Assembly: GCF_947623445.1 (NCBI RefSeq)
Contig: NC_135243.1
Coordinates: 6,884,501-6,948,500 of the forward strand
Reading direction: 5' to 3'
Source of the DNA: Clavelina lepadiformis
Taxonomy: Eukaryota > Chordata > Ascidiacea > Aplousobranchia > Clavelinidae
DNA: 64,000 nt
Both the position numbers and the translations under genes were made by a program. Below the pieces are notes generated by a model. That model did no database searches and had not been told where the DNA came from. It worked only from the letters and a program-made list of their open reading frames with translations. Below are positions 58,965 through 63,994 of the stretch, one piece after another. The number at the start of each line of letters is the position of its first letter. Within the stretch, counting starts at the first letter, position 1.

Positions 58965-58973
58965 GTGCTACAA

Positions 58974-60210
58974 GGTTCCACGACATATGGCCGCGGGAAA
59001 ATGACCGCGAACAAACTCACCGGGGACAACTGAACGTGACGTAAATTGACCGCGAACAAACTGACTGGGATGTAAATTGACCGCGAACAAACTAACCGGG
59101 AACAGACTGACCGGAATGAAAATTGACCGGAATGAAAATTGACCGGGAGGTAAATTGACCGTGCAAGTGCTGAATTATTGTGTTTAAGTTGATGGTAGTA
59201 TATGATATGTAAAGTAAATATTTGTTTGTAACTATTTCCTTTGTTTTTAACAAAATTTTTTTTTTTATTTCAATACACATTGAAACATTTATTGAAATAA
59301 ACAGAAATATTTCCGGAAATACGAGAAATACGAGTAACAACATTAAAAGAAGTTCACTGCAAAACACATATGACACTACATAATGGTTCCACGACATATG
59401 GCCGCGGGAAAGTGGCCGCGAACAAACTCACCGGGGTCAACTGAACGTGACGTAAATTGACCGCAGACAAACTGACTGTGACATAAACTGGCCGGCGATC
59501 AAATTAACCGTCGATAAATTGGCCGGCGATCAAATTAACCGACGACAAATTGGCCGTCAAAAGGTCAAAATTCTAATTCACTATCTAGTCACTTCTGTTT
59601 ATTTCAATAAACGTTTCAATGTGTATTGAAATAAAAAACAATTTTGTTAAAAACAAAGGAAATAGTTACAAACAAATATTTACTTTACATATCATATACT
59701 ACCGAGTTTAAAATTTTGACCTTTTGACGGCCAATTTGTCGCCGGTTAATTTGATCGCCGGCCAATTTATCGACGGTTAATTTGATCGCCGGCCAGTTTA
59801 TGTCACAGTCAGTTTGTCTGCGGTCAATTTACGTCACGTTCAGTTGACCCCGGTGAGTTTGTTCGCGGCCACTTTCCCGCGGCCATATGTCGTGCTCCCC
59901 TACATAATAAGGGCACTAAAATTTACACAAACTGTTATTTGACAAATCAGTCAACCTTGACTGCAATACACATACTTAATTGGCTGAGATGAAAGCTGAT
60001 GCGCGACTAGATAGTGAATTAGAATTTTGACCTTTTGACGGCCAATTTGTCGACGGTTAATTTGATCGCCGGCCAATTTGTCGACGGTTAATTTCATCGC
60101 CGGCCAATTTACGTCACGGTTAATTTGATCGCCGGCCAATTTGTTGCCGGTCAGTTGTCCACTACCAGTTGTCGCCGGTCAGTTTGTTCACGGCCATATG
60201 TCGTGATCCC
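58974..60210. mobile_element. Foldback-type element A1 with 9-bp target duplication
   Basis: The left end GGTTCCACGACATATGGCCG is mirrored by CGGCCATATGTCGTGATCCC at the right. GTGCTACAA is exactly duplicated at 58965-58973 and 60211-60219. Both subterminal regions consist of degenerate repeats: GACCGCGAACAAACT-type on the left, GGCCAATTTGTCGACGG-type on the right. The centre is AT-rich and non-coding. Element B is inserted at 59385-59899, so A1 itself is about 713 bp. A 9-bp duplication with long inverted ends fits Mutator-like or foldback elements. Apparent open frames here are repeats read as codons. Confidence 0.88.
59385..59899. mobile_element. Foldback-type element B nested in A1
   Basis: 515 bp made of two nearly perfect inverted arms of about 185 bp (59385-59570 and 59717-59899) around a 146-bp AT-rich loop. 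The left end GGTTCCACGACATATGG is mirrored on the right, with drift only in the first five bases. CTACATAAT is duplicated at 59376-59384 and 59900-59908. The loop is the reverse complement of part of the A1 centre (CAATACACATTGAAAC region). B is therefore a shorter relative inserted in the opposite sense. Confidence 0.9.
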
Positions 60211-60247
60211 GTGCTACAAAACCTGCAAGTGATTTGTAGGCAGTAGG

Positions 60248-60911
60248 GGTTCCATGACATATGACCGCGGGAAAATGACCGCGAACAAACTCACCGGGGA
60301 CAACTGAACGTGACGTAAATTGACCGCAAACAAACTGACCGTGATGTAAATTGACCGCGAACAAACTAACCGGGAACAGACTTACCGGAATGAAAATTGA
60401 CCGGGAGGTAAATTGACCGTGCAAGTGCTGAATTATTGTGTTTAAGTTGATGGCAGTATATGATATGTAAAGTAAATATTTGTTTGTAACTATTTCCTTT
60501 GTTTTTAACAAAATTTTTTTTTTATTTCAATACACATTGAAACATTTATTGAAATAAACAGAAATATTTCCGGAAATACGAGAAATACGAGTAACAACAT
60601 TAAAAGAAGTTCACTGCAAAACACATATGACACTACATAATAAGGGCACTAAAATTTACACAAACTGTTATTTGACAAATCAGTCAACCTTGACTGCAAT
60701 ACACATACTTAATTGGCTGAGATTAAAGCTGATGCGCGAATAGATAGTGAATTAGAATTTTGACCTTTTGACGGCCAATTTGTCGCCGGTTAATTTGATC
60801 GCCGGCCAATTTATCGACGGTTAATTTCATCGCCGGCCAATTTGTTGCCGGTCAGTTGTCCACTACCAGTTGTCGCCGGTGATTTTGTTCACGGTCACTT
60901 CTCGTGATCCC
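60248..60911. mobile_element. Foldback-type element A2 with 9-bp target duplication
   Basis: A 664-bp sister of A1, nearly identical in the left arm and centre. It is flanked by exact GGCAGTAGG duplications (60239-60247 and 60912-60920). Across the site where B entered A1 it reads CACTACATAATAAGGGC without a break. The right arm has fewer GGCCAATTT repeat units than A1. Confidence 0.9.
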
Positions 60912-61348
60912 GGCAGTAGGCTACGTGTCTTTGCATACATAACAGCTGACACTTTCATTAAGTCTTTGCACTACCTGTCTACTACACAACAATAACTGTA
61001 ACCTGTAATAAAAACAACGCTTGTGTCCACTGTCCAGTATTTAATTCCTCGTCAAAAAGATGTACAATTTCGATTGTTATATTACATTTCCATATTAATA
61101 TATACCACCGGTATATTTTTTCTACAGCATTATTTGTTTGGCTGTCACTATTTCCCAGGAAAAATCGTATAATCAAAGCTATTTTTCATAGTTTCTTGTT
61201 AACCTAACTTAAATGTCATTACATAGAAACGTAAATCTAACCGAAATTTAAATTTAACTTCAATTTGGAGAGCACTTCCACTTATCTTAATTTATGTTAT
61301 GAGTATCTTAACTTATGAGTGTGTCTTCACTAATTTACCTGTTGAAAT

Positions 61349-62138: not shown

Positions 62139-62212
62139 CAGCCCATTCGTCAAGGATTAGCCCATAGGAAAGGAAAAAAGGAATGCACGGATTTAGCCAT
62201 TCGAATGGGCTG
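62139..62212. repeat. Short inverted-repeat element
   Basis: CAGCCCATTCG at the left is mirrored by CGAATGGGCTG at the right, 74 bp apart. The ends resemble those of the MITE at 14001-14229 (CCCCATTCGTC), so it may be a deleted relative. No target duplication is clear. Confidence 0.4.
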
Positions 62213-62627
62213 AAAGGAATAATTCCATCTTTTAAAGTAATCGTTGTAAGGCTAATCGTGTTGGAATGAGTAATCCATTTTGTCGCATACGGCTATTCTA
62301 AAGCCTACAAGCCTTATGTAGATAGCCTGTAAGCAGTCTATGACGCAGTATGACAAATTTTACGAGGACGGTTGAATTGATATCTTGTTTTGCTTTTGAC
62401 TCGATGAGATGGTTGTCATTTCTTGAACGGTTTGCTTCTGCTGTTTGTTTAATTTCTGTCTATACAAATTGCTAACTGATAATTTTCCATTTTTATTTAT
62501 TCTCAGACACGAAGGCTTTCACCTTCGGGCAAAGCTTACTGAAAGTTACATAGCGCTGTAGTAACCAGTGAAATCGATCACATAAAAAGGAAAGATCGTA
62601 AACATTACAACAGTATATATATGTGGC

Positions 62628-63994
62628 GGTGGTCGGACGATTCAACCCACGGACGATTCAACCCCGGACAATTCAACCCACGGACGATTCAACCCAGGAC
62701 GATTCAACCCCGGACGATTCAACCCACGGACGATTCAACCCGCGGACGATTCAACCCGCGGACCATTCAACCCGCGGACGATTCAACCCACGGACGATTC
62801 AACCCGCGGACGATTCAACCCACGGACCTTTCAACCCACGGACGATTCAACCCACGGACGATTCAACCCTGGACGATTCAACCCCGGACGATTCAACCCA
62901 CGGACCTTTCAACCCACGGACGATTCAACCCCGGACTATTCAACCCACGGACGATTCAACCCCGGACGATTCAACCCGTTTATAAAAACGTCTACGCAGT
63001 TCGTTATCAGGCACGGATGCCGCTTTTACCACTATACCAATACACATCTTGTGTTGAAATAAAAACAAGTTTATGTACCGTGTTGTAACTAGTAGGCCTG
63101 CTTAGCGAAAAATAAAGCCTACACGTCGATTAAAAGTCAAACCTGTTTGTTGATTGGAATGAAGATTGCACGCAAAAAAAGTCTACATGGTCAATTTTTT
63201 TTAACCTGCTCAGAATGCTATCACAAAACAAATTTCAGTTTTGTGCGACGTGTAGTACAGAAGTTATTAGGCCAATATAAAGTCAATTGTTTCGTTAGGT
63301 CAAGATACGGTCAATTGTGTCTTTTAGGTCAAAATCTATTAAACTTGTAATTTTGTAATATTATTCTTTTTGTAATAGTACCCTTTTCAGCTTTGTGTTT
63401 TATACGTGCTGTGTTTGTGTTCAGGTTCATGTTCTTAAGCTTGCCTGTAAATAAAAAAACTTTCTTTCTAATTAATCGATGTATAAACAGGTATCTATAA
63501 AAATATCTGTAATTTGTGTACATGCAAAAAAATAAATAACTTACACACATTTACGTACGTGAGTCGAAAGCTAACTAAATTATGCATTTTGTCTTTTCAA
63601 AAATTTCAAAAATGTTAACTTAATGCTAAAAGGAGAACATTTTATATACTAACCGATCTACAATGGTCAATACAAAAAATAATAGCAGTTGGGTTGAATC
63701 GTCCGTGGGTTGAAAGGTCCGTGGGTTGAATCGTCCTGGGTTGAATCGTCCGGGGTTGAATCGTCCGCGGGTTGAATCGTCCGCGGGTTGAATCGTCCTC
63801 GGGTTGAATCGTCCGCGGGTTGAATCGTCCGCGGGTTGAATCGTCCGCGGGTTGAATGGTCCGCGGGTTGAATCGTCCGCGGGTTGAATCGTCCGCGGGT
63901 TGAATCGTCCGGGGTTGAATCGTCCTGGGTTGAATCGTCCGTGGGTTGAATCGTCCGGGGTTGAATCGTCCGTGGGTTGAATCGACCTGGAACC
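62628..63994. mobile_element. Foldback element C with minisatellite arms
   Basis: The left arm (62628-62981) is about 22 units of a 15-16 bp repeat (GGACGATTCAACCC plus 1-2 variable bases). The right arm (63691-63994) is about 19 units of the same repeat in the opposite orientation. The ends read GGTGGTCGGACGATTC and, in complement, GGTTCCAGGTCGATTC. The 0.7-kb centre is AT-rich with no supportable gene. ATATGT follows the right end at the window edge and ATATGTGGC precedes the left end, so a 9-bp target duplication is likely but cut off. Long open frames over the arms are repeat artefacts (RTIQP or DDST periodicity). Confidence 0.82.

Follow-up and report, generated by a model that had tools for sequence, protein, structure and literature searches.

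The window, a stretch of 64,000 nucleotides from chromosome 4 of Clavelina lepadiformis (C4:6884501-6948500), contains three related short elements, named A1, B and A2, and, near its right end, a second element of foldback type from another family (Table 1). An earlier note made from the letters of the window had claimed that A1, B and A2 each carry an exact 9-bp target duplication, and a reading of the sequence together with a script check confirmed it. The note had also placed B inside A1, with the unbroken target of B in A2. The alignment agrees: A1, after removal of B and of one copy of CTACATAAT, matched A2 at 647 of 664 aligned columns (97%), plus 49 gap columns. It follows that B was inserted after A1, whereas the order of A1 and A2, which the note's claim to read the insertion order from one sequence would include, does not follow. 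A1 and A2 lie 37 bp apart (60211-60247) in the same direction. Elsewhere in the family, the target of B was found intact in 53 matches to the 16-base stretch around it (at most 2 mismatches; fetched loci, partly overlapping).

Table 1 Foldback elements of the window and their target duplications. Positions are counted from the first nucleotide of the window.
Feature	Position	Strand	Description
A1	58974-60210	+	1237 bp including B, non-autonomous; tips GGTTCC and GGGATC
Target duplication of A1, GTGCTACAA	58965-58973 (left), 60211-60219 (right)	.	
B	59385-59899	+	515 bp, inside A1; tips GGTTCC and GGGAGC
Target duplication of B, CTACATAAT	59376-59384 (left), 59900-59908 (right)	.	
A2	60248-60911	+	664 bp, non-autonomous; has the empty site for B
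Target duplication of A2, GGCAGTAGG	60239-60247 (left), 60912-60920 (right)	.	
Second foldback element	62628-63994	+	1367 bp, different family; right tip GGTTCC read inward
Target duplication of the second element, ATATGTGGC	62619-62627 (left), 63995-64003 (right)	.	last 3 bases outside the window

Copies and target duplications in the genome

The genome searched comprised 209.06 Mb in 95 contigs. A 19-base end motif, searched with at most 2 mismatches, gave 272 matches and its reversed control 0, and the internal deletion junction of B gave 70 matches, 68 of them exact, with 0 for the control. Each DNA search scored its best 40 candidates, so that young copies are favoured. The best 40 full-length B copies showed 0 mismatches (24 copies) or 1 mismatch (16 copies) over the 515 bp. 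These short, non-coding and nearly identical copies, which share their ends with a coding partner described below, are MITE-like.

The genome search with the element end and the test for 9-bp duplications, both proposed in the earlier note, were then carried out. Among the best 40 B copies, 36 were flanked by exact 9-bp duplications, two by exact 8-bp ones (L071, L072) and two by none (L059, L062); in a chance control, 0 of 1,560 left/right pairs of flanks taken from different copies were identical. The A-type rows held 28 loci. No bounded copy was present at L007 and L102, and L006 and L098 are one place, where the test took a neighbouring 513-bp copy with an exact duplication; 24 remained. 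Exact 9-bp duplications were found in 18 of these 24 and no duplication in three (L101, L109, L113), and L103-L105 have one common 8-bp duplication with the same flanks, which probably counts as one event, the three loci probably being segmental copies. The identical 12-base flanks of L103, L104 and L105 (C4, 2.0-2.5 Mb) would be useful for dating. Of the 12 long copies with a tip at either end (1,087-2,607 bp in length), 11 showed exact 9-bp duplications and one, L041, a duplication of 10 bp. Where several end pairs were possible, the script chose the one with fewest mismatches, and these counts are slightly biased toward matches. The 9-bp target size given in the earlier note is hence that of most copies, with exceptions of 8 bp, 10 bp or no duplication, of the kind that the note itself had named as counting against it. 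The lengths found correspond to the target duplications of 8-11 bp, mostly 9, reported for the MULE superfamily (PMC6446971).

The 67 exactly duplicated sites showed a weak preference for a preceding T and a following A and, within the 9 bp, for G at position 1 and C or T at position 9. A strong target motif was considered and rejected, these 67 sites holding weak preferences alone and single sites being unpalindromic (27-46% complementary over four position pairs). On C1-C4, the 96 listed exact ends formed 7 neighbour pairs closer than 3 kb; 2,000 random placements gave 0.26 such pairs on average and never more than 4. In some cases, a pair may consist of the two ends of a single element, and the clusters may reflect insertion-tolerant regions. 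When the 200-bp flanks of 38 B copies were compared, L061 and L062 were found to lie inside coding-type elements, and the B of the window lies inside A1. The flanks of L062 end at positions 389 and 347 of the long copy, so that about 41 bp were probably lost at the target. Ectopic recombination was rejected as the origin of the unlike flanks of L059, as neither partner junction was found with at most 1 mismatch.

Several odd copies were noted. L005 and L101, about 6.5 kb apart on C9, have opposite orientations and a common 12-base left flank, ACGGTAAATTAC, while the right flank of L101 differs; this is perhaps a rearrangement with its breakpoint in or at the element. At L051:1986-3824, one tip is flanked by AAGAATAAG and another by the reverse complement of AAGAATAAG, which suggests an inversion through the element arms. 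No telomere repeats were found in the first 300 bases of the contig start L055, and the start of L056 consists of N.

A longer copy with a FLYWCH-MULE gene between the same ends

The MULE domain (PF10551) gave 141 matches in the genome, and the MULE loci that were fetched fall into several groups. In the group considered here, both young tips are present around the gene in 11 of 17 fetched loci. Four of these copies (L039, L040, L045 and L046) are exactly 2,598 bp long, at 99.7-99.8% identity to L040, and L042, L047, L041 and L052 are 2,567-2,607 bp long and about 98.5-99.7% identical to L040. Of the 11 young coding copies, 4 (L040, L045, L046, L047) retain an unbroken frame of 472 aa, counted from the first M, and 7 have a broken or shortened one; among the A-type relatives, L043 has a frame of 472 aa and L044 one of 471 aa. 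The longer copy with a MULE transposase between the same ends, which the earlier note had predicted, is therefore present in the genome as the copies of about 2,598 bp.

The 472-aa protein exhibits a FLYWCH domain at residues 4-64 (Pfam, 1.2e-13) followed by a MULE domain at residues 191-286 (PF10551, 2.2e-10; 41.3 bits, with a cut-off of 27.6). The MULE/DDE transposase lying between the element ends is the mark of the MULE superfamily, and the N-terminal FLYWCH domain joined to a MULE domain that of the Phantom/Muta clade. Residues D194, D256, C279, H282 and E388 are invariant in four proteins, one of them from a second family and 35% identical. By analogy, they may be read as the DDE and CH residues of the Muta1 kind, the catalytic residues of Muta1 being reported as D214, D283 and E419 (PMC5225508). 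A search for relatives of the transposase by solved structure found none at E up to 1.

Two arrays of MULE matches were seen besides. At C9:2577932-2612116, five MULE-domain matches lie about 8.5 kb apart on one strand, as if a MULE-bearing unit were tandemly repeated, and at C2:11879229-11919433 six MULE matches of equal score and frame length lie on one strand over about 40 kb.

Tips, arms and origin of the short copies

The two ends of L040 match over 192 bp, with mismatches only at positions 3-5 and 189, and the arms of B match over 192 bp except at 3-5, 158 and 189. Such long terminal inverted repeats are typical of MULEs, though not universal. Because the arms of L040 mismatch at positions 3-5, the element has two unlike tips, GGTTCC and GGGAGC (GGGATC in the A-type). 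The end GGTTCC, given in the earlier note as the element end, is accordingly one of the tips, and a second, different one, GGGATC or GGGAGC, has to be added. In the arms of L040 and A1, the periodicities at 15, 16 and 31 bp were stronger than in any of 200 shuffles; in the right arm of A2, this holds for 15 and 31 bp and not for 16 bp. Folded as a single strand, B gave -263.7 kcal/mol, versus -62.4 ± 5.1 kcal/mol in 100 shuffles (z = -39.7). These elements thus have long arms made of short tandem units and able to fold back, and of the two lineages between which the earlier note hesitated, Mutator-like or foldback, both labels apply, the first by the MULE gene and the second by the arms.

B corresponds to positions 1-209 (99.5% identity) and 2292-2598 (100%) of L040 and is a plain internal-deletion product of the 2598-bp element. 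A2, once reversed, corresponds to a related long copy reduced to its two ends; the identities are 82 and 87%, with a 25-bp piece at 100%.

Mosaic arms and turned interior of the young lineage

The GGTTCC and GGGATC arms of the A-type copies differ in sequence, and 45 sites separating them were defined on A1, A2, L004, L043 and L058. Up to position 90, all 13 sites of the young 5' arm (L040) are of the GGTTCC type, and from position 98 on all 32 are of the GGGATC type, so that a single switch between positions 90 and 98 fits all 45 diagnostic sites; none of 20,000 permutations was as clean. The young 3' arm exhibits the same mosaic at sites 35 to 188 and keeps the other tip. Further in, it is of the GGTTCC type at 189 and 195 and of the GGGATC type at 191 and 192, five other sites being neither or gaps, which places the end of the copied stretch near 188-192. 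When 62 sites were derived anew, all 11 young coding copies had the mosaic, except for gaps in L041_5 and L047_5 and a single odd site in each of L041_5, L045_3 and L050_3. B has the same mosaic arms, as its identity of 99.5 and 100% to L040 shows.

The two arms are distinct in all 21 further A-type copies, with scattered exceptions at one or two sites and alignment gaps. For this count, L104 and L105 were omitted as segmental copies of L103, and L004, A1 and A2 were set apart as site-defining copies; sites 186, 188 and 189 were not used, as they are misaligned in nearly all GGTTCC arms, those of the defining copies included.

The orientation of the gene differs too. GGTTCC lies 5' of the gene in the young lineage, whereas at the A-type MULE loci it lies 3' of the gene in L043, L048, the first gene of L050, L051 and L058, and GGGATC lies 5' of the gene in L051, L057 and L058. 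A tip was also searched for at the A-type MULE locus L044, and none was found there. The young coding interior is thus turned round relative to the tips in comparison with the A-type. L054, a copy of 1,087 bp without the gene and with the tip GGGATC, retains the A-type pairing of tip and inner arm, and the mosaic is already present up to position 120 in both of its arms; from this combination, L054 appears to be a surviving intermediate copy.

Second foldback family

The second foldback element of the window has arms of 297 nt, 96% alike, built from 16-bp units of the GGACGATTCAACCCRC type. Most of the 155-aa open frame at 62621-63088 is a read-through of one of these arms. Its right-hand interior gave 28 partial matches in the genome (40 candidates scored), and for 7 of these a MULE match on the same strand starts 821-860 bp further upstream. 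From these coordinates, the second family probably has a coding partner likewise. In the first-fetched MULE loci, no arrays linking them to this family were found. A 136-bp inverted repeat (95.6%) flanks the second element, at 62146-62281 of the window and at L118:351-485 (about 64350-64484 in window numbering); this is perhaps an older element into which the second one was inserted.

Transposition model and alternatives

From the observed ends, duplications and nesting, the arms and tips common to short and long copies, the intact frame and the derivation of B by deletion, we are highly confident of the following joint reading: A1, B and A2 belong, as non-autonomous elements, to a foldback MULE family and are moved by cut and paste and in trans by the 472-aa FLYWCH-MULE transposase of the copies of about 2,598 bp, and the exchange of arms came before the latest spread. 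The 472-aa protein would be the mover of all three elements and would cut with a 9-bp stagger, and each 15-16-bp unit of the arms may be a transposase site, bound via the FLYWCH domain.

The elements could instead belong to another superfamily with long repetitive arms, such as P-element/Galileo or hAT, and be Mutator by looks alone, given that Galileo of the P superfamily also has foldback-like arms (PMC3573991). We regard this as extremely improbable in view of the FLYWCH-MULE gene between the same tips and of duplications that are mostly of 9 bp, versus 7 bp in Galileo; the P-type transposase of the P-element superfamily and the 7-bp duplication of Galileo are not what was found. Hardly more credible is that the A1-A2-B cluster comes from a segmental duplication or an assembly error and not from three insertions. 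The likeness of A1-minus-B to A2 (97%), their closeness and their common direction would suit such an origin, as would L103-L105 on the same chromosome, which have common flanks and look segmentally duplicated; nevertheless, A1, B and A2 each have their own, different 9-bp duplication. That the young copies were moved by some other MULE family, such as the 451-aa one of L013, with the 2,598-bp copies as passengers, is unlikely, yet somewhat less so than these two. The number of MULE-domain matches in the genome and the several groups among the fetched loci leave room for another mover, but the young coding copies and B have identical tip and arm sequences, and the frame is unbroken in 4 of 11 copies, though recent copying alone could explain the latter.

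The arm mosaic itself can be followed site by site; the sequences suggest that the exchange preceded the latest spread, and we infer its direction from parsimony. A conversion between the two unlike arms of an A-type ancestor would have made their outer parts alike, a crossover inside the matched stretch would then have turned the interior, and a further conversion would have lengthened the match before the spread, with the order of steps, the timing and the cause of the spread being conjectural. We put forward only tentatively, as a possibility on the doubtful side, the fuller proposal that the latest spread followed this rebuilding of the ends, in which the arms recombined between 90 and 98, the interior was turned and the arms became alike except for the tips and one further site, one tip of each kind being kept because the transposase needs both; ancestor-like, intermediate (L054) and derived forms would then stand side by side. 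A need for unlike tips fits with Tm1, for which one reported copy has the same outer motif at both ends and no target duplication (PMC3169594). The reverse direction, with the mosaic arm of the young lineage ancestral and the A-type arms diverging later, seems to us improbable, although less so than any of the alternatives weighed above. It gains from the fact that the direction is drawn from parsimony rather than from an outgroup arm sequence. Against it, either A-type arm agrees with the mosaic in one segment and departs from it throughout the other, the further A-type copies (21 of 21) retain two distinct arms, and the second family, by coordinates, has GGTTCC 3' of its MULE neighbours, like the A-type.

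Comparison with known systems

The survey in PMC6446971 reports limited evidence of MULEs in chordates, with one accepted sequence, from Ciona savignyi. The best matches in the open-licence PMC literature on tunicate MULEs and Clavelina transposons contained no earlier description of the present family. It provides a chordate MULE family with intact coding copies in a group where MULEs are poorly documented, and these copies, together with at least 40 short copies identical or one base apart, make recent and perhaps current activity testable. Its arms are in addition a site-by-site record of foldback arms being exchanged and made alike. Phantom group 20 of the same survey includes Tunicata and is similar, with 8-10-bp duplications, terminal repeats of 18-613 bp and FLYWCH in some members (PMC6446971).

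The plan of the Clavelina family matches those of Tm1 and Muta1/Muta5, and it therefore belongs to a known kind and not to a new one. Tm1 of Meloidogyne, a Mutator/Foldback element of the Phantom subclass, has a coding element of 2593 bp (2598 bp here) and a FLYWCH and MULE protein of 496 aa (472 aa here), 9-bp duplications and two unlike terminal motifs outside the arms as in Clavelina, those of Tm1 being of 7 bp, and tandem units of 13-15 bp (15-16 bp here), a likeness by description and not by alignment; short MITE-like derivatives, nested elements and a paralogous empty site are likewise reported for it (PMC3169594). Tm1 differs by a gene with introns and by a single coding copy in a family judged inactive (PMC3169594), whereas the Clavelina family has one uninterrupted frame, several coding copies more than 99% identical, 70 B junctions and a history of mosaic arms.

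Muta1 and Muta5 of Aedes aegypti have, as here, long arms, made of 12-bp units with 3-4-bp spacers (a period of 15-16 bp) or of 15-bp units, a FLYWCH zinc finger, a DDE transposase, 8-9-bp duplications, those of 8 bp occurring in Muta1 also, and many non-autonomous derivatives; Muta1 is termed foldback by its authors (PMC5225508). They are longer, by description, with 3198 bp and 504 aa for Muta1, and Muta1 is proven active in yeast, where Muta5 failed although it had looked active (PMC5225508), while the Clavelina family is known from its sequence alone. Galileo, of the P superfamily, resembles the Clavelina family in its long repetitive arms and chimeric copies and differs in its unrelated transposase and 7-bp duplications (PMC3573991). 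The authors of that report proposed arm exchange as a source of new subfamilies and bursts (PMC3573991); in Clavelina, by comparison, the partners were the two arms of a single type of element, and the exchange can be read site by site, with an intermediate.
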